DNA of 64,000 nucleotides from Cordilura impudica (Eukaryota; Arthropoda; Insecta; Diptera; Scathophagidae), in assembly GCA_963682025.1 (NCBI GenBank), contig OY821521.1, positions 164,693,461 to 164,757,460 of the forward strand, written 5' to 3'. The notes beneath the pieces were generated by a model. That model was not told where the DNA came from. It made no database searches and worked only from the letters and a program-made list of their open reading frames with translations. This document shows, in pieces, positions 609-63,809 of the stretch; position 1 is the stretch's first letter; each line of letters begins with the position of its first letter. The position numbers and the translations under genes are program-made.

Positions 609-743
609 TATACCCTCCACTCCAGTGTGCAGAGGGTATATATAAGTTTGTCATTCCGTTTGTAATAATTAGAAAAAAAATTTTGGACCCCATAAAATTT
701 ATATATTTGTGATCCTTATAACAACCGGAGTTGATATAGCGAT

Positions 744-800
744 GTCCGTCTGTCCGTCTGTCCGTCTGTCCGTCTGTCCGTCTGTCCGTCTGTCCGTCTG
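744..800 (+). repeat. (GTCC/GTCT)n microsatellite
   Basis: Alternating GTCC and GTCT tetramers, the hallmark microsatellite of dipteran mini-me/DINE-1 elements. The matching tract of copy B, around 20653-20694, is shorter, so the tract length has changed since the copies separated. Confidence 0.9.
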
Positions 801-8302: not shown

Positions 8303-8652
8303 CTAGGAGATTCCAGCACTCGAAATTCGAGTGCAAATTCTAGGAAATTTTATTTTTTTATATATCAAAGACCCTAAAGGTATGCTTCGCAATTCAACTC
8401 ATTTTAAATGAAGAAAACAAACTCAACACATTAACACAAACACATTAACAAATTTAATAAACACACACATAGCATTGTATAATTTTATGTATGTGTTAGT
8501 AGCACCTTTAAACGATCATAACTCCAGACAATGAAAATCTGTAAATCTAAAAAGAAATACCTTTCAAATGATAAATTTTTTGTCAAAATCGGGGTAAAAT
8601 TGTGAAACTTACAACGGTCACAAGAAATCGCATTGCCTATTAATATTATAGA
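8303..8652 (-). mobile_element. Non-autonomous canonical Helitron, copy 2
   Basis: Same family as 5723-6081. Minus-strand TC start (at 8652-8651), terminal hairpin and CTAG end (8306-8303), between A at 8302 and T at 8653. It lies close to satellite sequence on both sides. Confidence 0.88.
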
Positions 8653-8754
8653 TAACGGTTGTTTGTTAAGTATAATAAATTTGCTACTACTACTTTGAAG
8701 CATTTAAAACTGTGGCGGGCATATCCCGTCAATGTCGAATTTGCACTTAAGAGG

Positions 8755-16712: not shown

Positions 16713-16963
16713 CAAATGATGATATAAAAGTTGTTTTATTTGCATGACTAGCAAGGACCAGTAAGCTCGTATAAAATATAATCACAATCATTTTCTTTAA
16801 CTGGTTTGTAGTTTTAATTCTGTCAGTAAATAAAAATGATTTGGTGATTATTTTACCCGTTTCCTCAATTGTGTTTTTTTTTTTTTTTTAATAAATAAAA
16901 ATCAGTTTGAAATGTAATACTTCAGTTTTTCGGAAAATAATAAAATAAAAAAAATTAATAAAA

Positions 16964-19900
16964 AACAAGTAAGAGTGTTAAATTCGGCTGTGCCGAATCT
17001 TTGATACCCTCCACCTCGGTTTGAGTATTGATAATAAATGTAAACAAAATATTGGAAAAAGTAAACAATTTGTTAAACTTAATACCAAATTATTTCAGAA
17101 AATTCTTTGGGTTGGTTTTCGTCTTTTCTATTATTTCGGATGTTTGCTTTTTGGTTATCGTGGTTGCTGATCGCCATGCATTTAGGTTATATACCTATAT
17201 GCATGCGTTTCCGGTTATATGTCATAACTTCTCGTTTAATTTAGTTTTTGCTAATTAAATAGCACGCCCTAACCTCCATTGCAAAGGTAATGGTTGTGTA
17301 GAGTGGCTATATGCATTAAATCGTGCTAATTGGAGATGGCTGTATAGTTTCTTTTAACTGGACAAATATTTCTTCATTGTGGCCATATAGGTCGGATGGA
17401 GTAACAAAATAATAACCAAAAAAAAAAGCTCTCTCATCTTTTTTTTTTAAATATTGCCATATTTTGAAAACATAGAGAATAAATTTATAATAATAAATAA
17501 TCAAATTAGGGATGCCAAACGCAAAAAACCAAAAGTCCCAAACATTTTAAATAAAATAATTTAATGTTATCTTTATTTTCTGAAAAACTTCAAATTTTCA
17601 TCCCAAAAAAATTGTGAAAATCTATATATAAAAAATAATATTCTCATCAAATTACGTTTACTTATGTAACAATTTTTATGTTAGCAATTCATAAATATCA
17701 TTTGAAGTTTTCTTAAATTCATTGAATTTAAATTAATATTTTCTGTAGTGCGATTCTGTAAATTTCAAATTCAGCGATCTGACAATCGCAAAATATATCG
17801 GCAGCTATTGTTGTTTGCACTAAGGATTAAGTGATTCACTAAGTACATACATCTTAACGACAGTCGACAAATCTGTGTTTCTATTTATTTAAATTGTAAA
17901 CTAGTGGCACCTCTGTCAAAATAAGCGAAAAACACAAAGAATAGAAAAAAACAAATTACTTCGTGTTTGACAGGATGATTTTATGTTTATGTTTAATATC
18001 TTTATTTTTTTACTAATATTTCTGTTTATTTATTTGAAAATGAAATAATGAATTGAATATGCTATTTAATTTTTTTATTTATATAAAAAAGTTTTTTAAT
18101 AAAAGCAAAATATTTTCACTATTTTATCACTATTTTATGATTTTTATTTATGTATGACGACATTTCAACCTAAAAATTTAAGTTTTTATCGATAGAATAA
18201 ACAACACAAAAATGGTTGTCGTTTAGATAACAACAACAGCTGACTTTAATTATTATGACTTTAATACAGATAATTTTGCAATTTTCTTTTTTTCACATTC
18301 GACTATCGTTAAAAGAAGTTACTGAATCGCGGTACTGAGAAGTTATTAATATCTCCTGAATGGCAATATTTTTTTTTTTAATGTAAACATTTTTAAATGT
18401 AAACATATTTGGTGTTTTTTTTTTTGGAATTTCAATTTGTGTTTAACGAATAAAATTTATATATTAAAGATGCAATTGATGTCTTCTAAATTTAAAATTA
18501 TTAATATCCGACGTTTTGATATGATTTTCTGAAATTCAATTAATATTTTCTAATTTATAATTGGAAATTTTAATTTCAGTTTTTATTAGAATTGATATTT
18601 TCTTAAATTTGAATGGAAAATTTAAAAAGTGCAATTTTGTATTTATGTGAATAATAATGCTTTATTAATTATAAAAAAATTTTAAAAATTAGATGTAATC
18701 GCAATCAGATATTTTGTAGGTAAAGCAGAATAATAGTTCTATATAACTATGTAGAACTGTTTTGAAAGCAAAAAACTCATTGATGAACTCGGTAACTCTA
18801 TTTTGTAAAGACAACAAAAAGTTAACATGCCAAACTTATGTTCATATTTGTAAAAGAATAATGAAAAAACGTATGAAATAAAAGACCAGCCCGTGTATAC
18901 TCTTAACATTGTTCTGTATGATATCTAGTCGAAAATATTGACATTCATGTTAAAATAGAAATAACTATTGCAAAGCTAATTAGAACAAAAATTGTGGCGC
19001 CATCTACTGTGGCATAGTCACGCTGAGCAAAATGAAGTGACACTCTGTTAATGCAAAAGAAATGTATTTTCCCCACAACAAAATATTGCAGAATTTTATG
19101 TAAATAAAATAATATACCCATTTATTTCTAACATGCAGTTACTATGAATATACATACATACATATATATAATATATGTATATTATTTGTATTATTTAATA
19201 TGTGTATGTATGTATATGTAAATATTACACACAAAAAATACAACATCAAACGTTATTTTTGTGTTTTTCTCTTTAAATAAATTAATACATAAATTTTTTT
19301 TGCTAAATTTACATTTGGGCAATTCACAACAGGTGTTGTATGTTGTATTGAAATACACAATACAATCATTTGTTGTGAACACTCAGTTGTATTTTCATAT
19401 TGTAAAACGCTTTCTTTTGTAATTTTCGATCCAACGAGGAAATATCGCTTCGTCGCTTCTGCTATTTTGTATAAGAGAAAACACTTGTCATTGTTTGCTT
19501 TTTGGTCTTGAGATATACCCTGGAGTTTTAGTTACGTACCTCTTGCATTTTAATTTATAATGAAAAAATAAAATGTTAAATGTTTTGGTTGGTACTGAAA
19601 GAGAAAATACATACTAAAAATATAAACATTAATTTTTATATAAATAAACTTATCGATGTATTTGCGTTATTTGCATTATTTGCCATATTTTATTTTATTA
19701 TTATTTATGCTGATAAAATTCTATGTATTTGTTTTTTCTTTTTCATAAAAACTGGCATTCACTTGGAACTGATATGTTATGATACAATATACAACATTTA
19801 CTAAACATAGCAAATGAAGTTGGATCGTGTATCAGATTTTTCAGTGAAAATTACCAACAACAATTTTACACTATTGTAAAGTGATACACGATACAACAGA

Positions 19901-20830
19901 TACAACGATACATTACCAATTGTGAATTGCCCAATTGTTTTTTTTTTTTATTAACAACTAGGTATTTTAGCATTATTTGCTTTAGATGTTGGTGAATTTT
20001 TACTCCCTTTATATTAACTCGTAGTGTCTGCTTGTCGAAAAAATTTTGGAACGATTTTAACCACTTTCCCGTTACCCAATTGATCTGAAATTTTGCAGGC
20101 AGGCTCGTGGTAATGACACAAATGATCTAACAAATTTTTTTAGTGATGCCAAAACAATGGAAACTTTAAAATTTTTCTACCAGAGTTGATAAAAAAAAAT
20201 GTACAAAGGGTTTGTTTTTATTATATTATTACCACAACGACTACAAAAACAACAAGTCCAGCTATGACAACGATGCAACATTTAGAATAACAACAAGAAC
20301 AATATAGAAATATCATGTTTTTCATTTTTTTTTTACTTTTTCAGAGATTTCCCTGGACTTGCTTCACCGATTTTAATGATTTTTGAAACAGAAATCTTCC
20401 CATGAATTTGGTGAATCATTCTCAGTAAAAACAATCAACCTAGCTGTCCTATTGAGGGCGTGATCGTGACAAGAACAACATAGAAAATTATATTTTTTCA
20501 AGACTTTTTTTAGTTCTTCATTCAAATCTCGGGCCCTAATCGACAGATTTGGACGATTTTAAATAGCAAACTTTTCAGGATATCAATGAATCATTTTTTA
20601 TGTCAACGAGCACCCTAGCTGCCCGATTGATGCCGTCATCGTGATTTCCACAGACGGACAGACGGACAGACAGACGGACAGACGGACAGACGGACATCGC
20701 TATATCAACTCCGGTTGTTATAAGGATCACAAATATATATATTTTATGGGGTCCAAATTTTTTTTTCTAATTATTACAAACGGAATGACAAACTTATATA
20801 TACCCTCTGCACACTGGAGTGGAGGGTATA
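16964..20830 (-). mobile_element. 3.7-kb DINE-1/Helentron-like element, copy B
   Basis: Reverse-complement counterpart of copy A along its whole length: 3' end (AACAAGTAAGAGTGTTAA, then the CGGCTGTGCCG hairpin) on the left, and the GTCC tract with the TATACCC end on the right. It carries the same 618-628-bp TIR insertion at the same site as copy A, so A and B descend from one already-invaded copy. No coding sequence. Confidence 0.85.
19316..19933 (-). mobile_element. 618-bp TIR element (MITE) nested in copy B
   Basis: Same element as 1509-2136, with TGGGCAATTCACAA ends and ATT duplicated at 19313-19315 and 19934-19936. Copy C lacks it and keeps a single ATT. Confidence 0.88.
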
Positions 20831-21167
20831 ATAATAATATAAAAAAGTAATAACAAAGAAAAACTGAAACGACAATCGTCGCGTTACTGCTTTGTACGAG
20901 TAGTTTTAATTCTGTCAGTAAATAACAACGATTTGTTAAAAATTATTACCGCTTTGTTGGGTTTTTTTTTTTTGTTTAAACATAAATGAAAAAATCTTTA
21001 AAGATACGTCGTTTTTCAAAAAAAAAAATAACAAAAAAATTATAAAGAATAATAATAATAAAAATTAAAAATAATAATAAAATTAATTTTAAAATACAGT
21101 AATAATAAGTACTGTTCTGTAGCTTTAATTCTGTCAGTAAATAATTAATTATTTTATACAGTCGTCA
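20831..21167. other. AT-rich spacer with short repeats
   Basis: No gene. TTTTAATTCTGTCAGTAAAT occurs near 20905 and, with one base different, near 21123; the first form is also on the other flank of copy B near 16810. Copy B thus appears to lie inside a repeated host sequence. Confidence 0.5.
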
Positions 21168-22580: not shown

Positions 22581-23886
22581 ACGGGTGATTTTTTTGAGGT
22601 TAGGATTTTCATGCATTAGTATTTGACAGATCACGTGGGATTTCAGACATGGTGTCAAAGAGAAAGATGCTCAGTATGCTTTGACATTTCATCATGAATA
22701 GACTTACTAACGAGCAACGCTTGCAAATCATTGAATTTTATTACCAAAATCAGTGTTCGGTTCGAAATGTGTTTCGCGCTTTACGTCCGATTTATGGTCT
22801 ACATAATCGACCAAGTGAGCAAACAATTAATGCGATTGTGACCAAGTTTCGCACTCAGTTTACTTTATTGGACATTAAACCAACCACACGAATGCGTACA
22901 GTGCGTACAGAAGAGAATATTGCGTCTGTTTCTGAGAGTGTTACTGAAGACCGTGAAATGTCGATTCGTCGCCGTTCGCAGCAATTGGGTTTGTGTTATT
23001 CGACCACATGGAAGATTTTACGCAAAGATCATGGTGTAAAACCGTATAAAATACAGCTCGTGCAAGAACTGAAGCCGAACGATCTGCCACAACGTCTAAT
23101 TTTCAGTGAATGGGCCCTAGAAAAGTTGGCAGAAAATCCGCTTTTTTATCGACAAATTTTGTTCAGCGATGAGGCTCATTTCTGGTTGAATGGCTTCGTA
23201 AATAAGCAAAATTGCCGTATTTGGAGTGAAGAGCAACCAGAAGCCGTTCAAGAACTGCCCATGCATCCCGAAAAATGCACTGTTTGGTGTGGTTTGTACG
23301 CTGGTGGAATCATTGGACCGTATTTTTTCAAAGATGCTGTTGGACGCAACGTTACGGTGAATGGCGATCGCTATCGTTCGATGCTAACAAACTTTTTGTT
23401 ACCAAAAATGGAAGAACTGAACTTGGTTGACATGTGGTTTCAACAAGATGGCGCTACATGCCACACAGCTCGCGATTCTATGGCCATTTTGAGGGAAAAC
23501 TTCGGAGAACAATTCATCTCAAGAAATGGACCGGTAAGTTGGCCACCAAGATCATGCGATTTGACGCCTTTAGACTATTTTTTGTGGGGCTACGTCAAGT
23601 CTAAAGTCTACAGAAATAAGCCAGCAACTATTCCAGCTTTGGAAGACAACATTTCCGAAGAAATTCGGGCTATTCCGGCCGAAATGCTCGAAAAAGTTGC
23701 CCAAAATTGGACTTTCCGAATGGACCACCTAAGACGCAGCCGCGGTCAACATTTAAATGAAATTATCTTCAAAAAGTAAATGTCATGGACCAATCTAACG
23801 TTTCAAATAAAGAACCGATGAGATTTTGCAAATTTTATGCGTTTCTTTTTAAAAAAAAGTTATCAAGCTCTTAAAAAATCACCCGT
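22581..23886 (+). mobile_element. Complete DD41D mariner-type transposon
   Basis: 1306-bp element with ends ACGGGTGATTTTTT and its complement, flanked by the TA duplication (22579-22580, 23887-23888). One intact transposase frame lies inside. A related but dead copy is at 36956-38226. Confidence 0.93.
22694..23779 (+). CDS. Tc1/mariner transposase, DD41D type (intact)
   Basis: Predicted 361-residue cut-and-paste transposase acting on the TIRs of its own element. Residues 1-60 form an HTH-like N-terminus (NRLTNEQRLQIIEFYYQN) and residues 86-130 a second DNA-binding segment. The catalytic domain has FSDEAHF (D159), QQDGATCHTA (D252) and TPLDYFLWGY (D294). There are 41 residues between the second and third aspartates, which places it in the DD41D (rosa-like) group. 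No stop or frameshift is visible, and length is normal for mariner. The ATG at 22694 is about 113 bp inside the left TIR, with a short 3' UTR before the right TIR. It is the only transposase in the window that looks functional. Confidence 0.93.
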   Translation: MNRLTNEQRLQIIEFYYQNQCSVRNVFRALRPIYGLHNRPSEQTINAIVTKFRTQFTLLDIKPTTRMRTVRTEENIASVSESVTEDREMSIRRRSQQLGLCYSTTWKILRKDHGVKPYKIQLVQELKPNDLPQRLIFSEWALEKLAENPLFYRQILFSDEAHFWLNGFVNKQNCRIWSEEQPEAVQELPMHPEKCTVWCGLYAGGIIGPYFFKDAVGRNVTVNGDRYRSMLTNFLLPKMEELNLVDMWFQQDGATCHTARDSMAILRENFGEQFISRNGPVSWPPRSCDLTPLDYFLWGYVKSKVYRNKPATIPALEDNISEEIRAIPAEMLEKVAQNWTFRMDHLRRSRGQHLNEIIFKK

Positions 23887-26639: not shown

Positions 26640-27315
26640 ATGAAAATACTTTTCGAAAAAAATTTCCTATTCAAGAAGTACTTTTTAATAGATGTTGCTT
26701 TAAAAAAAATAAAGGGTACTTTTAAGGAAATATACTTTTTTAAGGAAAGGAACTTTCTAAGCTAATTTTTGGGAAAAGATATTATTAAAAAAAAAGTACT
26801 ATTGCAAGAAAATATACTTATTTAAGAGAGATACTTTTTTAAGAAAATGTACTTTTTAAAAAAATTTACATATTTAACAAAAGGTACTTTTTAAGAACAG
26901 ATACTTTTTTAAGAAAAGTTACATTTTTATATAAGGTACTTTTTTAAGAAAATATGCTTTTTAAGAAAAGTACTACTTAAGAGATGTACTTTTTAAAGGA
27001 AAAGTACTTTTTGACGAAAAGGTACTTTTTAAGAAAATAATTTTTTTAGAAAAGGTATTTGCTTAGGAAAATGTGTTTTTTTAAAGAAATAGTACTTTTT
27101 AAGTTAAATTAAAGGGTACTTTTTTTTAATAAAATTCAACTTTTTAAGAAAAATTACTTTTTTAAGAAAAAATATTTTTAAAGAAAATTTACTTTTTAAA
27201 GAAATGGTACTTTTTTAAAAAATGTACTTTTTTTTTAAAAGGTACTTTTTAAGAAAATGTAAATTTTTAAGAGAAGGTACTTTTTAAAAAAGCTTCTTTT
27301 TAAGAAAAAGTATGA
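26640..27315 (+). repeat. 18-bp AT-rich satellite array, block 4
   Basis: Degenerate GGTACTTTTTTAAGAAAA units in the same orientation as all the other blocks. No gene. Confidence 0.85.
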
Positions 27316-28154
27316 GTGCATAGAAAATTTAAATATTAATCATACTTAATTCCAGAGTCACTGATGAGCTTAGCTAGAAAATATTTAATTTTTTTTTTTT
27401 TTTTTTGGTAAAGGAAAATAAAAGTCTATTAGTATTAGTTGGAATACAACCTTGCGTTTGGTATCAATATCAAAACAAAAAAACAAAAAAATCAACAAAC
27501 AGTTGCTTTTTAGTGTTGGCCACATTTGTACTAGAATGAACTTTTCCTAATTTATATAACCGTTACAACATATTTTTTAGAAAATTCAACATTAATTTTT
27601 TTTATACTTTAAGGATTATTGAAAACGAAAAGAAAAATTAAAATTGACTACTTGATACTCTACATCATGTCGTCTCAAAATTTTAAAAACGCGGTACTAA
27701 ACTTGAGCCTAATGGGGATCAAATACAAATAAAGATACCATTAGCCTAAAACTAAAAAATCTATAATCTTGGACACATCTTATAAATAAAAATGGAGATT
27801 CGTCTGTTTGTTTGTGGTTTATAGGAGGTTACACTATTGGACCGATTGTCTTGAAGTTTTTACAGTAAGTAACTGCTTATCTGAAAGGAAAAATTGGCTA
27901 TATTTTTTTGGATTTTTTAACATTTTATTTTAACATATAATATCTGGAGTACTACGACACCCAGAGTTCTGAAACTATGTACATGTCCATTATTAAACTA
28001 GTGTGAAGAGTCACGGAAAAATGGGAGGGATCGGACCAATGGGCGTCTACCAAAGTGAATATACAATATCATTTAACTGAAGTACTATACAAGATATATG
28101 ACGTACTATGAAAGCGACAGTCTTGAATCTTTTGATAAGTACATTAATAACCAA
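27316..28154. other. AT-rich stretch with a Helitron-like 5' start
   Basis: No gene. At 27778 the sequence TCTTATAAATAAAAATGGAG, preceded by A and followed by TCTGTTTGTTTGT and GGACCGATTGTCTTGAAG, resembles the 5' terminus of arthropod Helitrons. The matching 3' end was not found before the next element at 28155. Confidence 0.4.
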
Positions 28155-31020: not shown

Positions 31021-31512
31021 TTTAAAGAAAAAACTCCGAAATGCAAGGCATCTACTTCATCAAATAACCAGCATCCTCAACTCTGAGCAGCATATGACTG
31101 TATGGATCTACATACCGACTGAAAAAGTTTCCATTTTACTTCTAATGTTATATCATTTTTGTTCAAAAAACTACTCCAAATGGTATTAATGATATTTTTA
31201 GCTGAGTTATTTCTCTTGTCGAGGTGTTTTTTAAAAACCATTTGGGGTGTTAAGATTACACCTACATAAGTAGTTATATTCACTTACTATTTCTATAAAT
31301 TGTTCTCTATATTTTATTTTTTCATGAGCTGAAAGCCGGCCACCTTTTCTAAAAACCATCATCTGAGACTTCACCAAATTAAGTTCCATATTCCACTGGT
31401 CACAATATACCTCCAAATTTTTGACCATAGCTTGCATAACTTTTATGTCATCTGCGAATAGTACAATAATCGCCTGCATATAATAGTAAGCGCACATTAA
31501 CACCATCAATAA
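31021..31512 (-). pseudogene. LINE reverse transcriptase, C-terminal part
   Basis: Downstream half of the LINE whose upstream half lies at 34959-36460. It starts at the TTA duplication (31510-31512) with residues IDGVNVRLLLYAGD, where YAGD is a decayed form of the YADD catalytic box. After a frameshift it continues FADDIKVMQ, then a thumb-like segment (YCDQWNMELNLVKSQMMVF). A second frame (31283-31077) has the post-RT region ending SYAAQS. Several frameshifts make it non-functional. The clade is not resolved. Confidence 0.8.
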
Positions 31513-32125
31513 CACAAGGGAACAATGGTTCTGTTGATTAAGAACTGAATATTGTTTTTAAGGTTATTTGGGACGCTGAATCCAAATCTGCCCTTGGTTT
31601 TTTTCTATCAGCTCGACTTTTCGAGATATACCGTTATGTTCAAAATTAAGGCACTTCCGCTACATATATTGGAATAACTTGAAAACGGTTCACCATATTA
31701 AATTAAAAAAAAAATCCGAAACTCGCAAACAATATTCTCTTAAAGCCGTGCTTACTTTGTTTTTAAATTTTCCAAGTAGTTTTAGAGATATCGTTCAAGT
31801 TTTGAAAAAAAAATTAAAATTTTTTTAAAAAAAACATTTTTTTTGTTCTTTAAAAATTCCTAAAAAATAAAAATGGGACAAAAATCACAGTTTTGGTCTA
31901 CAAGCAGTTAGTTAAATATATTTCGAATAAAATGAGCTTTATTTCATTGCAATCGGTGCACAACTTTTGATTTTGTTCACGATTTACTGAATTCATATAA
32001 ATCGCGATTTCCATACAAAAATAACATTTTCTAATGTGTAAGTGTTTGTATGTAATAAGTTAGTTTTTTATGATTCTAAGAATTAAAAAAATTAAGTAAT
32101 AAAAAAAGATTATTTCATTTTTATG
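31513..32125 (+). repeat. Left long terminal inverted repeat, copy 1
   Basis: Reverse complement of 34334-34955. The inner edge ends at a block (32118-32139) that is also conserved in copy 2. Confidence 0.88.
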
Positions 32126-32558
32126 GTTGCGGTAGCAAACTCATAACGCCTATAAATTTTATTGTCCCTTTATGACACCTAGTCAGTTCACAGTCAATTA
32201 AAGAGAAAAAAGAAAAGTCCACTTGTTTTTATTGATGTGTGGTTTACCGTTGGTAACGGATGATTTTTTAAAGGAATTCCCCTGAGCACATGTGTTCATT
32301 CATAAGTGACTGTCAATAAAATTGTGGATATAATTTTTTTTGGTACTTCAGTAAAAAACTACTAAGTATTTATATGGGTTCATTCAACCAATTTTTCTGA
32401 TTCAACAAGTGTTTACGAAAGCGAAAAGTATAACGACAAAAAATATAAATCATTTTACATTGAACATTTAATCAGTCAACACAAAAAAGTTCAATTTTGT
32501 TCCCGTGTGTTATTTATTGAAAATTGTGTTACTTTGATATATACTTCAAAATTGTGCA

Positions 32559-34250
32559 ATGGCTACGTCAAGAAACACCTGTAAAATCAATCCCAACTAT
32601 TTTTGTAACATATGTGGCGAATACACGTTTATAAAAAATAGAAAAAGTGTGTCAGATTTTATTAAAAAAATTTATTTTGACTACTTCGGATTTACCATGG
32701 AAACCCGTGACAAGTACTGGATTCCTAATACTGTATGTAAAAACTGTGTAGAGTATTTAAGGTTATGGGCAAACAAGCAACGGACCCACTTCAAGTATAA
32801 AACACCAATGATCTGGCGGGAACCTTCGAATCATTATGATGATTGTTATTTTTGCGCTGTCAACATAACAGGCATTAATAAAACAAACCGGTCTAAATGG
32901 ATTTATCCTAACGTGTTGTCTATTACCCAACCAGTCCTGTACTCTAGTGAGGATTCAGAACCACAACCATCTACATCTACACACAATTTCCACGACTTAC
33001 GACAAAATGTTCCTTCACCAATTTCTGAATTTGGATCAGATGACTTGCATTTAGATATTTCTTCTGAACGCGAGCAATTTAATCAGGAGGAGCTTAGTGA
33101 TTTAGTGAGAGACCTTGGACTTTCTAAAAAAGCATCTGAAATTCTTGCTTCTCGATTAAAGCAAAAAAATCTGTTAACCCAAGGAACAACAATTTCATAC
33201 TACCGTAACAGAGAAAAAAACTTACTTCCATTCTTTTCCGAAGACGATGAATTTGTTTATTGTTCAGATGTTCCTGGTTTAGTAACAGCGATGGGATTAG
33301 AGGAGTATGATCCAAATGACTGGCGACTATTTATAGATTCTTCTAAACGCAGCCTAAAATGTGTACTTCTGCATAACGGTAATAAATTGGGTTCGTTGCC
33401 CATTGCACATTCAACTAAAGCTAAAGAAGAATATTCTACAATTGCCTCAGTTATAAATAAAATAAAGTACAACGAACACCGCTGGCTAATTTGTGTGGAT
33501 CTAAAAATGGTGAATTTTCTTCTAGGCCAACAAGGTGGCTACACAAAATATCCGTGTTTCATTTGTTTATGGGATAGCAGAGCCAGATCTGAACACTGGA
33601 GTAAGAAAGACTGGCCTTCGAGGGAAGCTATGGTTCCAGGAAACCACAATATAGTTAATCAACCACTTGTAACCAGGGATCGCATAATACTGCCACCTCT
33701 CCATATCAAGCTAGGACTTATGAAACAATTTGTCAAAGCTCTCAACGAGGACGGTGATTGTTTTAGATATATCAGTAAAAAGTTCAACAATTTGAGTTCG
33801 GAGAAACTGAAAGCTGGCATTTTTGATGGCCCTCAAATCAAAAAATTAATCAATGATGAAAATTTTAGTAATTCCATGACAGATATTTAAAGAAATGCTT
33901 GGAATGAATTTGTTTGGATAGTGCGCAATTTCCTGGGAAACAAAAAGGGTGAGCACTATTCGGACCACGTGGATAACATGTTGTCACATTTCAAGCAGCT
34001 TGGTTGTAATATGAGCATTAAGGTGCACTACCTACACAGTCATTTGGATTGTTTCCCTGAAAATCTTGGAGACTTCAGTGAAGAACAAGGTGAACGTTTC
34101 CATCAAGATATCCGCACTATAGAGGAGCGGTACCAGGGTCACTGGGATAAGCATATGATGGCGGACTATTGCTGGAGCATTAAAAAAAAAACCTCTAAAC
34201 AAGGTTATTTAAGAAAATCTTATAAAAGAAAATTTTTCGATGAGTTGTAA
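32559..34250 (+). pseudogene. Transposase of the long-TIR family, copy 1 (one internal stop)
   Basis: A single 563-residue frame broken only by TAA at 33888-33890 (codon 444). N-terminus with CxxC pairs at 16/19, 60/63 and 96/99, probably zinc-binding. An acidic, Ser-rich linker spans 125-180. The core has FIDSS (D260), CVDLK (D314), CFIC (C333/C336, 19 residues after D314), LPPLHIKLGL (379-388), KVHYLHSHLD (H490, H493, H495, D497) and SEEQGERFHQD (E509/E512). The order D, D, CxxC, His cluster, E, and the 19-residue D-to-C spacing, parallel RAG1 as I remember it (D708/C727), so an RNase-H-like DDE fold is inferred. Unlike copies 2 and 3, it has no intron at the GP-motif. The 5' leader contains a near-copy of the element's right end. 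I know no gene name. Confidence 0.82.
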
Positions 34251-34333
34251 TTACATTGTAATATTTGTGTATTAAAATTTTTTATTTTTCTTTAAAATTC
34301 TCTTTTTGTGTTAAATTAAAAAGTATAGCTGAC

Positions 34334-34955
34334 CATAAAAATGAAATAATCTTTTTTTATTACTTAAATTTTTTAATTCTTAGAATCATAAAAACCTAAC
34401 TTATTACATACAAACACTTACACATTAGAAAATGTTATTTTTGTATGGAAATCGCGATTTATATCAATTCAGTAAATCGTGAACAAAATCAAAAGTTGTG
34501 CACCGATTGCAATGAAATAAAGCTCATTTTATTCGAAATATATTTAACTAACTGTTTGTAGACCAAAACTGTGATTTTTGTCGCATTTTTATTTTTTAGG
34601 AATTTTTAAAGAACAAAAAAAATGTTTTTTTTAAAAAAATTTTAATTTTTTTTTCAAAACTTGAACGATATCTCTAAAACTACTTGGAAAATTTAAAAAC
34701 AAAGTAAGCACGGCTTTAAGGGAATATTGTTTGCGAGTTTCGGATTTTTTTTTTAATTCAATATGGTGAACCGTTTTCAAGTTATTCCAATATATGTAGC
34801 GGAAGTGCCTTAATTTTGAACATAACGGTATATCTCGAAAAGTCGAGCTGATAGAAAAAAACCAAGTGCAGATTTGAAATCAGCGACCTCAAATTAGTAA
34901 AAATTTGCTATAAATTTCAAATCAACACAAAAAAGTTCAATTTTGTTCCCTTGTG
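34334..34955 (+). repeat. Right long terminal inverted repeat, copy 1
   Basis: Partner of 31513-32125. Its last 35 bp are also found, in direct orientation, at 32476-32510 with one mismatch. Confidence 0.88.
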
Positions 34956-34958
34956 TAA

Positions 34959-36955: not shown

Positions 36956-38226
36956 AAGGGTGATTTTTTAAGAGCTATAGGAAAGTTTTCCAAAAAAAAA
37001 AAAAACACATAAAATTCAGAAAAATGCATGAAATCATTATTTAATCCATAGTACGGTCCATATAATTTAATGTTTGAAGATTTTTTCATGCAAATGTTGA
37101 CCGTGACTGCGCCTCAAATGGTCCATCCGCTTAGTCGAATTTTGGCATAATCTTTCCAACATTTCGGCCGGTATCTCACGAATAAATGCTTCAATGTTGT
37201 CTTTCAATGCGTCAATTGAAGCGGGATTGTCTGTATAGACATGAGCTTTAACATAGCCCTACAAAAAATAGTCTAAAGGCGTTAAATCGCACGATCTAGG
37301 CGGCCAATTGACCGGTCCCGAATGTGTTTAAAATGTTCGCCTCTCAATAAGTCCATTGTTGCGCGTGCTGTGTGGCATGTGGCACAGTCTTGCTGAATCC
37401 ACATGTCATGCAAGTCAAGCTCTTGCATTTTGGACAAAAAAAAGTTGGATACCATCTCTCGGTAGCGCTCACCATTCACAGTTACGTTACGATTCGCATC
37501 ATCTTTGAAGAAGTACGGTCCAATGATGCCACCAGCCCATAAACCGCACCAAACTGTGACTTTTTCTGGATGCATTGGTAGCTCTTCCAATGCTTCTGGC
37601 TGATATTCACTCCAAAATCGACAACTCTGCTTATTTACATACCCATTGAGCCAAAAATGAGCTTCGTCGCTGAACACAATTTTTCGGTAAAAAAGTGGAT
37701 CTTCGGCCAGCTTTCTAAGAGCCCATTCATCAAAAAATCTACGTTGCGGTAGGTCGTTCGGCTTCAATTCTTGCATCAGCTGTATTTTGAAAGGCTTCAC
37801 ACCTAAATCATTCCGCAAAATTTTCCACGTTGTTGAGGAACAGAGGCCCAATTGCTGCGAACGGCGATGAATCGATAAACAGCTGCGATATTTTCTTCAG
37901 TTCGCACTCTACGTAAGCGTGTTGGTGGTTTAATGTCCAACAATGTAAATTTGGTGCGAAATTTAGTTACAATAGCCCGAATAGCCGCTTCAGTGGGTCG
38001 ATTAAACTGACCGTAAAATGGAAGAAGCGCGCATGAACTTTCTTAACAGAGCACGCATTTTGATAATAAAATTCAATAACTTGCAAGCGTTGTTCGTTTG
38101 TAAGACGATTCGTGGTTAAATTATAGACCAAACTGAAGATGTTGGACAATGAAACAAAACACGAAACGTGCGTCAGCTGTTTAAACCAGTGTTGCCAAAA
38201 AGATATTAGCTAAAAAAATCACCCTT
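36956..38226 (-). mobile_element. DD41D mariner, degenerate copy
   Basis: TIRs AAGGGTGATTTTTT; TA at 36954-36955 and a mutated TT at 38227-38228. It is inserted in the hAT transposase gene and related to the intact element at 22581-23886. Confidence 0.88.
37100..38149 (-). pseudogene. Mariner DD41D transposase, inactivated
   Basis: Minus-strand homologue of the intact 361-residue transposase. The N-terminus (NRLTNEQRLQVIEFYYQN) is followed by a frameshift near 38050 and a small deletion near 37880. The central frame (37851-37282) keeps FSDEAHFWLNG, but QQDGATCHTA has become QQDCATCHTA. The C-terminal TPLDYFL box is followed by an in-frame TAG (near 37257) where the intact copy has Trp. The ending MDHLRRSHGQHLHEKIF is preserved. 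Not functional. Confidence 0.88.
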
Positions 38227-38682: not shown

Positions 38683-39042
38683 CACAGTACAACGCATGAT
38701 TTCGGGACTCAATTTTGATAATTTTGTGTGAAAGTAGCCTTAAAAATAAGAACTTCTGTATCATTCGTTTGGTCATGTTACATCAACAAATAATTTTAAT
38801 ATTTTTTTGAAGTTAGTAAGTATCGTATAGGGGAATTTGTCACGTTTTAGGCTCTTTTGTTTGGCATAACTCGAGAACCACTACTCGGATTTTGCTGAAA
38901 CAATTTTTGAAAAATCAAGAATTACAATTACTTTCATCTGTTTATATAACGTTTCGCTACATAAGCAACAGTTTCGCAGTTATAAATAAATGTATGAAGA
39001 AAAAAAAATATTTTTTGCCTAAAAATTTTTTTTTTTTTTTTA
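38683..39042 (+). repeat. Left long terminal inverted repeat, copy 2
   Basis: Reverse complement of 41714-42083, starting CACAGTACAAC. The first 20 bp differ in length between the arms; the rest aligns closely. Confidence 0.88.
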
Positions 39043-39616
39043 ATTCATAAAAAATCCAAAACGGTCAAAAGTGCCAAGTCGTATTACTTTTGCGTAAAGT
39101 CACATAACCTATGAACAAAATGAGACATAAATCATGAAAATCGATGAACGCGTTTCGCTTTTATTCACAATTAAGTGAAGGTATGAATTTCAAAAAATTG
39201 CTCGAGATATGCAGAAAATTCTTTGGAAAAAACATTGATGACTTTTTTTATGATTTTCAGAATTAAAAAAAAAAAATGTAATAAACAAAAGGTTATTTGA
39301 TTTTTATGATTGCGGTAGCAAAGTAATAAACGCTAATAAATGTGCGTGGACAAAAATGAAAAAAGGAAACTGCACTTTTTAAATGAATTGGGGTTTTCCG
39401 TTAGTTACCTGAATAATTTTTTTACGGAAATTACGGAAATTTGCGCCCATTCATAAGTACCTGTCAGTAAAATATTGAAATATACGTAGTATTTATAGGT
39501 GTTCATTGATCGGTTTTTGTCATTCAACCATTGCCGACGAACACGAACAAATAACAAGCTATTTTTTTCCGGTTTTTTAAAAGTGAATAACAACAAAACA
39601 TATAATATATTTCAAT

Positions 39617-41551
39617 ATGGAAAATAACAATTGCCCAAAATTGGACGATTTTTGTTACGTTTGTGGTCATATCGTCCTAAAAATAGACTAAAAGGGTCGA
39701 AAAAACTTGTTTAGTGAGGAATTCAAAACAGCGTATTGTCATTATTTTGATGAAGCAGATTTAAGTGGTGCAAATTTTACGCCGAACACAGTGTGCAAAA
39801 ATTGTTATAATACCCTTATAATGTGGATACGTGGAAAAGGTGGAGAGTTTTCTTTTATGAAGCCAGTAATTTGGGTGGAAGACCTAGGTGGACATAATAA
39901 ATCCAGGTGCTACGCATGCATAAATTCTCGTCATGGATTAAATAGAAAACAATTGAAAACAAAAGTATACATTGCTGCTTTTACTGCCACACTTCCAGTT
40001 AAACGCGCTGCTGATATCGATACACCTAAACCTCCGAGTCTGGATACTGTGTCCCTGCCAGCCGAAACCGTTTTCACCAATCCGACCAATGTAAATGATG
40101 CAGATTGGACACCCGATATTGAAAAAAATGCACCACAACCGCTAACACAAATCGAAATGGATTACATTGTTGCCAAGATGGGACTATCACAACAAAAATC
40201 CCAAATGTTGACATCATTTTTGAAGAGCAGAAAACTCACACAGCAAAATGTCAGCTCAACATCATACCGAAAACGCCAACCTGAATTTCAGAAATTTTAT
40301 TCCCTTGACGAAGCAAATACGTTCACTTACTGTCATGATATCCCAGGTTTAGTGCAAAAATTGGGAATGGATTATATTGCTGCCGACTGGCGTTTATTCA
40401 TCGATGGTTCAGTTTCAAGTTTGAAGGCTGTTGCACAAAACAAACAAAAAACCGTCCATTCCATTGGGATTCAGCACAACTATGAAGGAAACGTATGAAA
40501 CATTGGGCGAAATTTTGGAGAAAATCAAATACAATGTACACAAATGGAAGATTTGTTGTGATCTAAAGGTTGTCAACATAATACAAGGCATTATATTAAA
40601 GGGCGGTTTTCCAAAATACTTCTGCTTCCTTTGTAATTGGGATTCGCGATATGCAGAGAATCAATATCAATGTAAAGATTGGGAAGCAAGAACTCCCGAG
40701 CTGGAGAAACAATTAAAATTACGTAATGAACCTTTGATAAAGGATCTAGCTGATATTTTGTTGCCATCGCTCCACATGAAATTAGGAATAGCTGGGAAAT
40801 TCGTCGAAGTGGTAGTCAAAGATATTTATGACGCCTATGACTGTTTGAAATCCATCTTTCCAAAACTCAGTGAAGCTAAAATTAGAAAAGGTACGTATCG
40901 TTGTCTGTATTTAAATATTATCATATCTAAATTTGTTCCCTTCGATAAATTCGCATTACCAATAATTTTTTCGAAAATGTTTTTTTTTTTTATATTTCAA
41001 ACAGGTACTCTCAATGGACCGGATATACAAAAGTTAATGAAAAGCGAATCTTTCACAAATATGCTTTCGAACCATTATAACCACCTATGTGCATGGGACG
41101 CATTGAAACAAGTCATCGAAGGCGTTTTAAGAAAGAACCGTGTACAGCGAGATGACATACAGACACGAGTGGACAACTTGCTGATTTATTTTGAGAAAAT
41201 CAATGCATCCATGACGTTAAAATTACATTTCATGCATTTCCACCTTGATACATTTTTGGCACAATTACCTCAGGAATCGGACGAACAAGGAGAGAGGTTC
41301 CACCAGGTGACCATGCCAATGGAAAAGCGATTCAAAGGCAAAAAATTGGATGCATTGCTTGCGGAGGTTTGTTGGTGGAGTTCTAAAATTATGCAGTTTG
41401 AAGATGAAAGCACCGAAGATGAAGATGACACTGAAATTGGTGGACACACTGAACAAAACATGCCCTTGAATATTATGTCTAACTCGGATGATGATGCAGA
41501 CTCAGAACACGAATATGAACAACCTACGAAGAAACCAAGGTCATCAGAATA
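39617..41551 (+). pseudogene. Transposase of the long-TIR family, copy 2 (stop, frameshift, intron)
   Basis: Homologue of 32559-34250. The ATG at 39617 leads into FCYVCGHIV, then TAA at 39689-39691; the same frame goes on to NTVCKNC, CYACINS, and DWRLFIDGS. A frameshift near 40428 leads to CCDLK, CFLCNWDSR and LPSLHMKLGI. A 114-bp GT-AG intron (40891-41004) splits the codon before TLNGPDIQKL. The second exon has LKLHFMHFHLD and SDEQGERFHQ, then an acidic tail with KKPRSS, a possible nuclear localisation signal. The intron is a multiple of three with no stop, so retention would keep the frame. Catalytic-type D, D, CxxC, HxxHxHxD and E are all kept, though the CDLK-to-CxxC distance is 21. Confidence 0.82.
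40891..41004 (+). other. Intron in copy-2 transposase
   Basis: GTACGTATCG donor; T-rich tract and TTTCAAACAG acceptor; phase 1. The same position and phase hold an intron in copy 3 (63319-63378), and none in copy 1. Confidence 0.8.
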
Positions 41552-41713
41552 ACAAGCGTCAACTTCAACGAGGATGGATAGTGACAATAATTGAAAATGT
41601 TCTAAATTTTGTTTCCATGCACAGATAACATATAAAAATCACATATTTTCTGTGTAAGAATAGCTGTAATATGAATCGGAATGTTTTTTTCATGCAAAAT
41701 AAAGTTTACGAAA

Positions 41714-42083
41714 AAAAAAAAATAAAAAATTTTTATGCAAAAAATATTTTTTTTTTCTTCATACATTTATTTATAACTGCGAAACTGTTGCTTATGTAGC
41801 GAAACGTTATATAAACAGATGAAAGTAATTGTAATTCTTGATTTTTCAAAAATTGTTTCAGCGAAATCCGATTAGTGGTTCTCGAGTTATGCCAAACAAA
41901 AGAGCCTAAAACGTGACAAATTCCCCTATACGATACTTACTAACTTCAAAAAAATATTAAAATTATTTGTTGATGTAACATGACCAACCGAATGATACAG
42001 AAGTTCTTATTTTTTAGGCTACTTTCACATAAAATTATCAAAATTGAGTCCCGAATCAATAAGCTTAAAAATGTTGTACTGTG
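41714..42083 (+). repeat. Right long terminal inverted repeat, copy 2
   Basis: Partner of 38683-39042; ends GTTGTACTGTG before TAA. Confidence 0.88.
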
Positions 42084-44734: not shown

Positions 44735-45183
44735 GTGTCTATTTTTCGCCCTACTCCAGAGAATCCCTTCATACCAGCCCATACCTGTATATTATTAAGC
44801 CATATTATATCCTTTCGTCCTCTAGTAGGCTTTCCTCCAATATTTGCTCGCGTAATAATTTTCAGCAGCTTATATTTTGGTTTAGATAGCAGAAAGCCAA
44901 CACCGTGGCTTCTGGTTGCCCACTCGGTTTGCCGGAGAATACAAAGGTGTATCTATCTGATGTAGAAAACTCACCAAAGTCTGGCCACCTTGTTTCAGAC
45001 AGCCCTAGGATGTGGATATTATATTGTTTGCACTCTTTACATACTTGAGCCAGGCGAGATTGTTCCAGTAGTGTTCTAATATTCCATGTTCCTATGCGTA
45101 TCCGTGATTTCATGCCAAAGGTCGTCATCAGATTGTCGGGTTGATTTCTTCTTCTATTTGTTGTGGTTTCAGTAATCAGAGGC
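44735..45183 (-). pseudogene. RTE-like LINE endonuclease start, inverted
   Basis: Minus-strand frame with an N-terminal leader then RIRIGTWNIRTLLEQSRLAQ and ILGLSETRW, the first motifs of an APE-type endonuclease. After a frameshift at GFLLS, the sequence continues as KYKLLKIITRANIGGK and RGRKDIIWLNNIQVW, which resembles the C-terminal tail of a LINE. Its 5'-most end meets the plus-strand RT at 45184, a head-to-head junction. Confidence 0.75.
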
Positions 45184-46173
45184 ACTGCGTTGCAAGGGCG
45201 TGCCGGAAAGAATCGTTACGTTAATAAAAAATCTGTATACAGATGCAACTTGCAGCGTGCTGCATGAGAATCAGCTCAGCAATCGGATCAGTATCAAAAC
45301 CGGCGTTCGACAAGGCTGCGTTCTTTCACCCACTTTGTTCAACCTAGTCGTCGATGTCATTATGCTTAAGGCGATGAGCAACCAAAAAGGCATACAATGG
45401 GGGTTGCAAGGAAAGCTGGATGATCTGGACTATGCAGACGACATCTGTCTTCTAGCACACAAATACGAAGATCTGAAAGCAAAGCTGAATGCGTTAAGCA
45501 CGCTTGCCTCCAGGGCTGGGCTCGAAATTAACATACAGAAAACTGAAACTCTGCGTATAAATACAAACATCGATACACCGTTTGAGATCAACAGCAGCTC
45601 AATCGAAAACGTACAGCCTTTCTGCTACCTGGGTAGCATAATAACAACTAATGGAGGCAGCGATGATGACATCTTAAACCGGGTAAAAAAGGCTGGTCAG
45701 GCATTCGGCGCTCTTAAAAATATCTGGAACTCGACAGTGCTATGCCGCCGAACAAAAGTCAGAATCTTCAACTCGAATGTCAAGTCCATTTTGCTCTACG
45801 GTTGCGAAACGTGGAACGCGTCTCCCAGGCTCGTAAACCATCTTCAAGTTTTTGTGAACCGATGTCTCCGCCGTTTGCTCAGAATAAGGTGGCCTGAGGT
45901 AATTACCAACGATCGGTTATGGATATTATGCAGCCAAACGCCTATTGGTATTGGATTGGCCACACGCTGAGGAAACCTCCTTCCGACATAACCAGAAAAG
46001 CAATCGACTGGAACCCACAAGGATCTCGTAGAAGAGGATGTCCGGCACATACGTGGAAAAGACAGCTCATCAAAGACTTCGAATCAAGGCGAACGAGTTG
46101 GAATGAAGTGAAAGGTCTAGCGTCAGACAGACGGAGATGGAAGCAATTTGTTGTGGCCCTATGCTCCTCATAG
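45184..46173 (+). pseudogene. RTE-like LINE reverse transcriptase, C-terminal half
   Basis: Plus-strand frame GVPERIVTLIKNLY, TGVRQGCVLSPTLFNLVVD, LDDLDYADDICLL (catalytic YADD), then KTKVRIFN-like TKVRIFNSNVKSILLYGCE. A frameshift near 45930 leads to IGHTLRKPPSDITRKAIDWN and CPAHTWKRQL, the usual RTE-like C-terminus, ending in CSS at 46173. A short 3' tail with TAATATATA follows. The finger part of the RT and most of the endonuclease are missing, so it is dead. Confidence 0.85.
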
Positions 46174-50149: not shown

Positions 50150-53100
50150 ACCGGCCCAGGAAGAGGGGGGTCAGGTGGGTCGTTTGACATGGGCCTCTTA
50201 ATTCAGGTGGCCTCCAAACAACACTACATATTTGAAACAATACAAAACGATTAAAAAGTTTATTTCACACTTTTACGTAGGGCACAACAAAAAAAACTTA
50301 AAATTAAAATTTTCAAATATAAAATAAGAAATCGTAGTAGGCTTTGAGTTGTTACATGAGTTCAAATTTGTGTAATAAAAGGTTATTAAGTATTTAGTGG
50401 TCTATCTCGGAGGTGGTTAAACCTTAAAACTATTGTTAAAGTGTTTTGTTCTATTCATTATTAAAGTGTTATTGAATTTTATAACTGAATTCTTTAAACT
50501 TCCAAAAATTAAAATAACTGGTAATATTTTTTGTGTCTTTGATTATTGATAATAAATAAAAATATATATACTAGGGAGGTAATTAAAACATGAAGAGGTC
50601 TTTTGAAAGTGGCGCCAGCAAAAGGCAAAAGAAAAAACTTAAGGAGTCAGCTATTAAAAGTTTAAAACCGATTTCACATTTTTTAAATAAGGATTCATCA
50701 AATCAACCCGAAAGACCTTCAACATTTAACACAGAAAAATCCACAGTTGAAACTGCAGTAAGTGATACGGTTATCGAAAAAGAGGAACTGAATGAAAATA
50801 CTGTTGAAATTGAGAGTATTGAAATTGTAACCACAGTGCGAGAGGATGTAGTTAGTGCAATGGAATTACCAGATGAAAATGATCAATTGAGGACCGTGCA
50901 AACGGAAGGTGAAGAAATTGAAGTAAATCTATTGAATACTGAAACATTAAAGTGTACGGATATTGGAGTGCTTGATAAAAATAATCAGGCGCAAATGAAA
51001 TCAGTTATGAAAATTACTCGTTTTGAAATCCCAAAAAATATTTCGAAAGACGCAACCAACCGTGGATTTCCATATCGTTTACTTTCAAAAAAACTTGCAA
51101 ATGGAGAATCGTGTGAAAGAGATTGGATATGCTGGAGCGTCCAAAACCAATCAATTTATTGTGCTGCATGTTACATTTTAAACAACAACACGCATTTCCC
51201 ATATTTAACAGATAAATTGGGATACAACATAAAAAATGGTTGGAAGAAGTTAAATGACTGGATAAAATCTCACGAGAATTCTATTTTACACAAGGAAATG
51301 TATATTTCATGGAAAAATGCGCAAAAAGCTGCTTTAGCTAATCGTGGATTAGATAACTTACTGGCAAAAGAACTAAAAAATGAAGTTACATATTGGAAAA
51401 AGCTGTTGGAGCGTTTCCTTGATATAATATTTTTTCTCTCCGAGAGAGGACTAGCTTTTTTTTTGGATCTAATCAGCGAATAATGGAAATTTTCTTGGCT
51501 TAGTTGAACTTTTAAGTATATATGATCCGATATTATCAGAGCATGTTACAAAAGGTAGAGCATCACAAGAAGAAGAAAAAAGATTGCAAGTTCATTATCT
51601 TTTAAATAAAATTCAAAACGAGTTTATCGACCTATGGGCTCATTTGTTCAAAGAAAAATTATTGATGAAATTAATAACGCTAAGTATTTTTCTATTATTG
51701 CTGATGCAACTCCAGATACATCTCATAAGGAGCAGACAACTTTGATTATTCGTTATGTTAAATTAAGTGAATTGGATTTTTCAATTGAAGAACGCTTTCT
51801 ATGTTTTGATGATTTTTCGGAAAAAACCGGCAAAGAAATTGCTGGTGGCTTATGAAGTCTCTTAAAACATTTAACCTTGAATTTTCAGAACTGTGTCGGG
51901 CAAGGATATGATAATGGTGTTAATATGGCTGGAAAATATAACAGCGTACAAGCACTCCTTTTGCTCGAAAATTCAAATTGCACGTTCAGCAGCTGCGGCA
52001 ATCATACTTTAAATCTTGTTGTAGCTGACTCAGCAGAATGCTGTAAAGAAGCAATAACATACTTAGAACTATTCAACAAGTATATAATTTTTTTAGTAGT
52101 AGTCCAAAAAGATGGGAGGTTTTATAAAAACATCTTTACGGAATTTCTTTACACAACATTTTAAAACTAGATGGTCTGCAAGAATAGATGCTGTTAAGCC
52201 AGTTGCCCATTTGAAATCCTTATTATCAGCTGTCAACGAATTTGAGCTATGTAGTCTTCCAGCTACACATTTGAATGTGTATTAATGTCTACAATTTGGA
52301 TTAAGGTTTTGGTTTTATTGCATCAAACAAATCTAATTCTCCAAGCGCGGAAATCAACATTGACAACGGAAAAAATTAATATTGACAAACTTATTGAAGA
52401 TATAAAGGAAATTAAAAATGCATGGTCTTCGATTCTTTCCGAGTCAAAGCAAATAGCAGCAGCTTATGAAACTGTTACAGAATTTACAACAAATCGACGA
52501 ATAAAAGATCAAGTATCTGCACAAGTATATTTTCACAACGACATTTTTAACAGGATCATTGAATCATTAATAGATGGACTTACGCGAAGATTTAAAGCTG
52601 TTTCCTCTATATGCAACTTATTTGAAGTTCTATGGAATTTTGATGAGATGTATGAGAAGAGCTTAATTGCAGCAGCAATTATTTTGCAGAAAAAATATAA
52701 AAATCAAATTAATGAAGAAATTGTAGAAGAATTTAAGTTTCTGAAAAGAGTGTATAAATACAATTTTAAAGGCTGCACGAAACCGTGTGAACTTTTAAAA
52801 GAAATAATTGAAATGGGTTTTCTAAATATATATCCAAATATTACTACTTTTTAGCGTAGCAGAGGCAGAAAGGAGTTTCAGCGTACTCAAACGAATAAAA
52901 AATTATTTAAGAGCAACAATGGTGCAGGATCGTGTAAATGGTCTGGCGACACTAAATATTAATTGGGATATTGCAAAAAATGTGGACTATTCCGAACTAA
53001 TAGCTTCATTTGCAGCTCTAAAGGCCCGAAAAGCTTTATTTTAATTTTTTTTTTTTTTCATTATATTTCATTTTATATTTTTTTGTTTCATTATATTTTG

Positions 53101-62027: not shown

Positions 62028-63809
62028 GCGTTCCGAAACATTCAGTGCCCGACTCGAAATAACTCTTGTTACGTTTGTGCTTATTCGCAGCAAGTAAAAA
62101 TTTGAAAAATATTACGAAAACAGTGGTTAATTCGTTTCAGAAAATATTCAAGACTGCTTATGTTCCTTACTTGTGGTAAACTCCGGAAGTAGTGTGCGAC
62201 TATTGCTATAGAAATTTATGCAAGTTTACTGATGGAAGGTCAACAATAAAGTACGCTGTACCAACAATTTGGCTACCACGTACGTACGGAGCACGCAAAC
62301 TAAAAGGTACCAATACTTTCGCCGCAACAAAATTCTCTACGCTAATATAGAATCGGTTAGTCCAGCGGTTCTGTACTCACCAGAAGAACGTATAGCAGCT
62401 TCAGTGGAGATATTTGATGATGTTCCCGAATTAAGCCATGGAGAACCAACAGTAGTACCAACAATGCTATCAACATTTCTTGCATCGAATGCGAGATGCG
62501 AGAGTCCAGAAGTATCGGAATTTGTACCAACACCCAGTGAACTTGGGACTGCAGTGCCACATTTAGTAACGCAAGCCGACTTCAATGGCCTTGTACGAGA
62601 CGGAAATTTGTCGAGGAGAACAGCCGAACTCTTTGCATCATGCTTTAAGCAGTGGAATACAATGGCGGCTGATTTTAAAATAACAGCCGCTCGTGATCGA
62701 CGTAGCACTATTCCATATTACGAATTTTTTAAATTGCACGAAGATCGGGAAAAAACCTGGCTTATTGTTATGATATTTATTCGATGTTTGCAAAAATTGG
62801 TTACCCTCATATTTGAGAGGAGTGGCGACTTTTCATCGATGCATCGGTCAACAGCCTTAAAGTCGAGCTGCTTCATATCGGTAACAAACATCCATCTGTC
62901 CCGATCGCATATGCCACAAACCTCAAAGAAACATACGAAGGCATGGAATTAATATTACAGCTGATGAAGTACCAAGACCATAATTGGAAAATATGCTGCG
63001 ATCTGAAAGTGGTCGGATTACTTATGGGTGTTAAGCGTGGTTTTCCAACCCATCAGTGCTTTTTGTGTACATGGGAAGGTCGCAAAAGAGATCAGCATTA
63101 CACAGAATTTAAGTGGAAGCCGCGAGCATGCTACAAAGTAGGCGTAGAAAGTATAGAGAATTTACCATTGGTGCAGCCATCTCAAATCATTTTGCCACCA
63201 CTACACATTAAGCTCGGTCTCGTATCAAATTTTTTTAAAAAACTGGATCGTGAGGGTGAGGCGATTGCAAGTTTGCGCAAAATTTTTCCGAAATTGAGCG
63301 GCGCAAAGATTCATGCAGGTATTTTTTTAAGAAGTCATTCAGTAACTTTATTTTTTTTAATGATGTGTATGATTTAAGCCGTTTTCAATGGTCCGCAGAT
63401 AAAAAAAATTATGAATTTTATGAATTTTCATCAAAATTGAATGCTATCGAACAACGTGCATGGAAAGGCACAGTTGCCGTTATTGAGCAGTTTCTTGGCA
63501 ACAAACGAGCTGCCAATTATAAAAATATTGTCGCAGAAATGATTTCGGCATTTGGCGAAAAGGGCATATTAATGTCGCTAAAGATCCATTTCCTTCACAA
63601 TCATTTAGATTTTTCCTGATGATTTAGGAGCTTGTAGCGATGAGCATGGCGAAAGGTTCCATCAGGACATTGCGGCTATTGAAAAGCGCTTTAAAGGACA
63701 AGACATTACGAATATGCTTGGCGAATACTGTTGGTCTATTTGTCGCGATACTGACACAAATGCTTACAAACGCAAAAATAAAAGGTCTAAGTTTCTTAAA
63801 AAGCATTGA
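62028..63809 (+). pseudogene. Transposase of the long-TIR family, copy 3 (multiple breaks)
   Basis: Homologue of 32559-34250. A degraded N-terminus (SCYVCAYS, VVCDYCYRNL, VPTIWLPR) lies in shifting frames. The frame at 62269-62952 covers the linker and PYYEFFKLHED; a frameshift near 62755 displaces EEWRLFIDAS and SLKVELLHIGN. The frame at 62943-63377 has CCDLKVVGLLMG, CFLCTWEGR (19 residues after the Asp) and LPPLHIKLGL. A 60-bp intron follows, then FNGPQIKKI, KIHFLHNHLDF, another frameshift near 63619, and SDEHGERFHQDIAAIEKRFK to the stop at 63809. All catalytic-type residues can be found, but across frames. Confidence 0.8.
63319..63378 (+). other. Putative 60-bp intron in copy-3 transposase
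   Basis: GT...AG segment (donor GTATTTTT, acceptor GATTTAAG) at the same codon and phase 1 as the copy-2 intron. Splicing joins AKIHA to VFNGPQ. Short size is typical of fly introns. The acceptor lacks a strong pyrimidine tract right before AG. Confidence 0.65.

Follow-up and report, generated by a model that had tools for sequence, protein, structure and literature searches.

The window analysed here, a stretch of 64,000 nucleotides from Cordilura impudica, contains an element (copy 1) that encodes a RAG1-like transposase between long inverted arms and has two ends of unequal spacing. To which superfamily does it belong, and does the inequality of its ends reflect a pairing rule like that of antibody-gene assembly? 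We conclude, with a probability of about 0.85, that copy 1 is a cut-and-paste transposon of the Chapaev3 group, with a zinc/DDE transposase and insertion at TWA; its chemistry, the binding of zinc, the joint use of one short and one long end and the flipping of its gene segment we infer.

Organisation of the copy 1 element

The boundaries given for this element in the earlier note are exact: CACAAGGGAACAA starts at 31513 and its reverse complement, at 34943-34955, finishes at the last base of the element. The long terminal inverted repeats and CAC ends claimed there are likewise present, as arms of 557 nt with 98% complementarity and as CAC..GTG tips. The features of copy 1 are as follows.

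31513..34955, + strand: complete element assigned to Chapaev3 (copy 1), 3,443 bp, with tips and target-site duplication (TSD); near-identical copies lie in the host genome, G000
31510..31512, no strand: left TSD, TAA, with base A outside
34956..34958, no strand: right TSD, TAA, with base T outside
31513..31592, + strand: short (S) end, the 13-bp tip and outer region up to the shared arm; family majority 80 bp
34866..34955, − strand: long (G) end, with the 13-bp tip of the S end; tip-to-arm distance 10 bp greater in the family majority
31571..32127, + strand: left long inverted arm, 98% complementary to the right arm
34332..34888, − strand: right long inverted arm
32476..32509, − strand: internal relic of a G-type end, slightly altered, just 5' of the gene and followed by TTAT
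32559..34250, + strand: transposase gene, with one in-frame TAA at 33888-33890

The space between the arms holds a single long open reading frame and no second, RAG2-like gene. Because of the in-frame TAA in the transposase gene, copy 1 itself is probably inactive. It sits within a reverse-transcriptase-like frame, the right flank matching RVT_1 (E 2.1e-15) and the left flank having no Pfam match, and when the flanks are joined the frame is open for 125 residues over the insertion point. Since each TSD copy is 3 bp, the frame is the same whether one or both are kept, and the joined frame is thus no test of the duplication.

The internal relic of a G-type end occurs in 30 of 31 aligned rows of the copy 1 family, being missing from L011. 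The TTAT that follows it resembles an insertion boundary. One possibility was that the relic marks the end of a small independent element made up of the initial ∼1 kb of copy 1. No free unit of this kind was seen: all 40 scored matches to this region (of 1,613 candidates) start at base 1 or 2 and extend beyond the relic to base 1003.

In the 1.49-Gb host genome at least 95 copies, scored over the first 443 residues, are all 99–100% identical, and 3 of these 95 have a stop within those residues; many copies outside the window have open frames. The inner regions of 28 copies differ from the majority sequence by 0–7 substitutions, with five variants each common to two copies and none more widespread. 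Genome-wide, 928 sites match the short tip (≤2 mismatches), with none for the reversed control, and 1,015 match the long tip exactly, again with none for the control. As judged from its sequences, the copy 1 family has spread recently, and it may still be moving.

Two types of end

The S and G ends are identical over their first 13 bp, and the arms follow behind 80 bp at the S end and 90 bp at the G end; the majority sequences of the two arms agree at 534 of 535 positions. In 19 copies the distance from each tip to one constant arm position was compared, and the two ends differ by exactly 10 bp in 13 of them. Among the rest, the window copy has a difference of 9 bp (tip to arm, the G end being the longer), three copies with small deletions have 15, 18 and 22 bp, and two were unmeasurable.

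Both tips are recognisable in 36 of 41 copies of the copy 1 family (28 of 31 in one set and 8 of 10 in a second), drawn mostly from the top of a protein-match ranking, comprising 40 places and the window's own copy; the count of end types applies to these 36, and leaves aside L014, L018, L030 and two of the second set, in which a tip was not recognised. Every one of the 36 has one end of each type, with S before the gene in 27 and G before the gene in 9, and none has two ends of the same type. In 35 of them matching 3-bp TWA duplications, flanked by A and T, enclose the element, the sole exception being L015 (TTA/TTG). Excision by the transposase would take place at the CAC..GTG tips, and insertion would produce a 3-bp TWA duplication; the enzyme would pair one short with one long end, as under the 12/23 rule, the spacings of the two being about one helical turn apart. 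Such counts within one family are no proof of selection, since a single S/G master yields S/G copies and since flips between the arms preserve the S/G combination without any rule.

Neighbouring, convergent ends less than 9 kb apart were also joined into pairs among the exact ends listed on C1:1-81.38 Mb, of which 78 are S and 100 are G. This gave 73 convergent pairs, of which 69 are mixed, three are G/G and one is S/S, and left 32 of the 178 ends unpaired. Among the four same-type pairs, three have duplications that differ from each other. The exception is a G/G pair at C1:16830306, spanning 7,656 bp, with TAA at both sides; both of its G ends are recognisable, the left one with a 3-bp deletion. 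This pair may have moved as a unit, or the TAA match may be due to chance, which would not be rare given that TAA and TTA are the usual duplications. Matching duplications in 35 of 36 mixed copies compared with one of four same-type pairs give a Fisher p of 0.0016, for groups that were sampled differently, the mixed copies by protein matches and the same-type pairs by end patterns. Given the mostly unlike duplications, and with small numbers, the same-type pairs look mostly like products of recombination between copies rather than of transposition.

Related elements in the window

Three homologous proteins with a set of shared motifs had been claimed for the window. The motifs are present, and searches by tblastn with the copy 1 protein (its stop treated as X) link the three copies, with E 3.5e-62 for copy 3 and E 6.5e-52 and 6.2e-33 for two parts of copy 2.

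38683..42083, + strand: copy 2, a complete element of 3,401 bp from a second Chapaev3 family, with tips CACAGTACAAC and TSD TAA
38701..39051, + strand: left arm of copy 2, 95% complementary to the right arm
41705..42055, − strand: right arm of copy 2, with a tip-to-arm distance 10 bp greater than on the left
39692..41552, + strand: copy 2 transposase, broken by a frameshift into two frames (39692-40498 and 40425-41552)
40891..41004, + strand: intron-like GT..AG insert of 114 bp in copy 2, near residue 420
62129..63794, + strand: copy 3, a broken transposase of a third Chapaev3 family

When aligned, copy 3 too has an insert at the position of the intron-like insert of copy 2. Arms were found at the right end of copy 3, and no CAC tip was recognised on it; the tips of its family are visible in another locus, L083. 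When the window was scanned for the pattern A-TWA-[CAC..GTG]-TWA-T, with 11-bp tips and at most one mismatch, only copies 1 and 2 were found, and five block shuffles gave no match.

The window also contains the remains of other mobile elements. An open frame of 361 residues at 22694-23779, mariner-like by eye, matches the DUF4817 helix-turn-helix (E 1.2e-14) and has a decayed inverted relative at ∼37040-38209. Frame pieces at 50587-53044 are of hAT type by eye, the first piece having no Pfam match; a fragment at 47290-47664 matches DDE_Tnp_1_7 (Transposase IS4, E 2.5e-9), a domain of piggyBac type; and a reverse-transcriptase fragment lies at 45176-45970 (RVT_1, E 1.1e-16). A very large inverted repeat in several pieces, with 92–98% complementarity, joins 605-4308 and 16944-20834. 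Large AT-rich arrays with 18-bp steps occupy 59-12743, 26750-27362 and 57074-59493, and the largest repeat family of the window has 230 copies of an 81-nt reference.

Conservation of the end offset among families

The offset between the two ends is found again outside the copy 1 family. It measures 9–10 bp, immediately behind the tip, in six of six families, and both the tips and the spacers differ between these families. The copy 2 family has an offset of 10 bp, both in the window's element and in each of the four other members accepted by the tip scan, with protein identity as low as 75%. These four came from ten other members; of the remaining six, two carry an S tip and a G tip with TSDs ATA and TAT, three have one tip and one has none. 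The L017 element (6332-7536) is 1,205 bp long and has Chapaev3-type ends and arms of ∼470 bp; its offset is 10 bp behind the tip and 8–11 bp deeper in, and its inner motif contains ACAAAAACC, the RSS nonamer consensus.

The copy 3 family, represented by L083, has an offset of 10 bp, with a second value of 13 deeper in; the window's own copy 3 (L082) provides no tip pair. L085 has an offset of 9 bp, adjoining a T run. In L087 and its relative L086, the latter paired by reading its ends, the offset is 10 bp near the tip, and in L087 it is 5 bp deeper in, where an A run carries an indel. The L086 element, at ∼1608-3900 with TSD GTA, seemingly lies inside another Chapaev3 transposase gene. A contrary case is L084, a second element of the copy 3 family with matching TTA, in which the ends are offset by 54–62 bp because the left subterminal part aligns to neither end type.

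If offsets from 0 to 15 bp were equally likely, six values at 9–10 bp would have a probability of ∼4e-6, a figure that measures conservation and not independent origin, because the families are related. The sharing of the offset among families is stronger evidence than the counts within one family, for families that share an ancestor and one host genome. The alternative is that these are ordinary Chapaev3 elements in which a difference of ∼10 bp between the ends, without function, was frozen as an accident of ancestry. We consider this unlikely: although the families probably have a Chapaev3 ancestor in common, most of the S/G counts stem from a single recent burst, and one G/G pair does have a matching TSD, the difference has stayed at 9–10 bp in every family despite the divergence of tips and spacers, and three of the four same-type pairs lack matching duplications. 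The boldest reading, put forward tentatively and at a little less than even odds, is that Chapaev3 obeys a 12/23-like rule older than the split between Chapaev3 and Transib-RAG; the V(D)J rule would then be an inherited trait of the CMCT clade as a whole, and the nearly perfect arms would permit flips of the gene, with the rule preserving one end of either type.

Proposed flipping of the gene segment

Homologous recombination between the arms would flip the gene segment and leave one end of each kind. Seven of 28 copies are flipped, with the G end 5' of the gene. No inner variant is common to two flipped copies, and of the five inner variants that each occur in two copies, two are found in one flipped and one unflipped copy, a pattern consistent with repeated flipping between the arms. 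It is possible instead that the copies with G before the gene form a separate subfamily. A single early flip, followed by the spread of both forms, is compatible with the variant data, and the inversion event is not directly observed; we nevertheless doubt this explanation, in view of the variants that bridge the two orientations, the lack of any common to two flipped copies, and the near-identity of the arm majorities (534/535).

The transposase and its relatives

The intact database homolog of the copy 1 transposase, P0001, matches 98% of the query at 98% identity, and the residue numbers are those of this protein. In an alignment of 63 relatives, Asp260 and Asp314 are conserved in all 63, Cys333 in 61 and Cys336 in 62, Leu381 in 63 and His382 in 62, and His490 and His495 each in 62. 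Glu509 and Glu512, either of which could be the catalytic glutamate, are likewise each present in 62. Three N-terminal CxxC pairs are kept in 57–62 of the 63. The step of 19 residues from the second Asp to the CxxC pair, proposed in the earlier note as a likeness to RAG1, corresponds with Asp314 to Cys333, and the suggestion that the protein is built like RAG1 agrees with its predicted fold, in which the core appears to be an RNase-H-fold DDE domain of the RAG1/Transib type.

Profile searches give weak matches. Among Pfam families none matched the window transposases above its cut-off; P0001 matches zf-AD below the cut-off of that family, 27 of the 63 relatives match it at E≤1, and RAG1_imp_bd is matched by copy 2 (E 0.012) and by one of the 63 (E 0.12). 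In a profile search of the PDB the best match is a RAG1 fragment, over two CxxC pairs, with E 0.22; with a narrower alignment (A1) there was a single match at chance level. A Chapa domain, part of the RAG1 N-terminus, has been reported in Chapaev, Chapaev3 and, in truncated form, TransibSU (PMC4411706), and the sequence of the N-terminal CxxC region is consistent with such a domain, without being proof of it.

The relatives number 2,463 database proteins at E≤1e-3, out of 5,535 candidates, and constitute a real gene family. Hosts named among the 120 matches listed include a worm lizard, a frog, beetles, a grasshopper and Hydra, and none of these 120 has a precomputed Pfam domain. Pattern matches in viral contigs and in bacterial and archaeal contigs were in neither case confirmed by tblastn.

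Assignment to Chapaev3

Several named groups can be compared with the element directly. A 4-bp duplication marks Chapaev sensu stricto, and CACTA/EnSpm elements have CACTA-type tips; the duplication here is 3 bp, and the tips read CACAA, CACAG, CACCG and CACTG. For the superfamily as a whole, PMC4079192 gives duplications of 3–4 bp. Transib elements duplicate 5 bp, and RAG and RAG-like elements carry the second gene that is absent from copy 1.

According to PMC4079192, Chapaev3 elements are recognised by tips of the form CAC..GTG, by insertion between A and T with a 3-bp duplication of TWA, and by three transposase motifs, C(2)C, LH and H(4)H. Copies 1 and 2 both have such tips, as do other members of the copy 1 family and elements at other loci; the duplication is that of the two-tipped copies described above, exceptions to TWA in other families being ATA and TAT in relatives of copy 2 and GTA in L086; and the motifs accompany the DDE residues in the column counts over the 63 proteins. 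The earlier note had proposed a RAG-related DDE lineage without a name, of which the RAG1-like build stands, as a predicted fold, and the absence of a name does not. That the element represents a new RAG-related lineage outside every named superfamily is very improbable, for while its transposases lack a Pfam family at cut-off and have a RAG1-like predicted fold, its tips, duplication and three motifs are those published for Chapaev3 (PMC4079192). We conclude that the element is most probably a further member of Chapaev3, and that its asymmetric ends are the part that specialists would find of interest.

Comparison with known systems

These ends bear on how the 12/23 rule of antibody-gene assembly arose. 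Should a remote branch of the same transposase clade indeed use ends one helical turn apart in spacing, the rule could far predate RAG2 and immunity; being young and present in many copies, the element is suited to a test of such pairing. The assignment also bears on annotation, with 2,463 database proteins in the family and no precomputed Pfam domain on the 120 listed. Outside Repbase Reports and most subscription journals, a literature search found no report of end asymmetry in Chapaev, and the main text of PMC4079192 does not mention an asymmetry of spacing.

The closest likeness is to the Chapaev3 elements Merrow, Garfield and Conan, from distant animals, which share the CAC..GTG tips, the TWA duplication, the motifs and a transposase of ∼560 residues (PMC4079192). 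Merrow, from lampreys, measures 2,451–2,455 bp and Garfield, from silkworm, 2,289 bp in that account, compared with 3,443 and 3,401 bp for copies 1 and 2; elements at loci beyond the window span 2,296–3,655 bp, and the arms of all these elements, copies 1 and 2 included, are of ∼160–560 bp. Merrow has a first exon of 75–78 residues (PMC4079192), whereas copy 1 is intronless and copy 2 has its insert near residue 420. Transib differs in its 5-bp duplication, given for HzTransib and Transib5 (PMC8355894 and PMC4411706), and canonical Transib is described without a Chapa domain in PMC4411706.

Asymmetric ends are known from the RAG signals (12/23), some Transibs and a RAG-like element of Aureococcus (PMC8355894 and PMC9435367), and other Transibs have symmetric ends (PMC9435367). 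The Aureococcus anophagefferens element, AanRAGL, is alike in having a 13-bp tip element, an inner element and asymmetric spacers, of 4 and 13 bp, and differs in having RAG2L and 5-bp TSDs, according to PMC9435367. RAG1/RAG2 itself differs in that the element here has one gene and a duplication of 3 rather than 5 bp. The V(D)J signals have spacers of 12 and 23 bp, and the inner motif here lies ∼15–20 or 25–30 bp from the start of the tip; by analogy, the difference of about one helical turn between the two ends, as in the antibody-gene signals, may reflect the same pairing rule in both.
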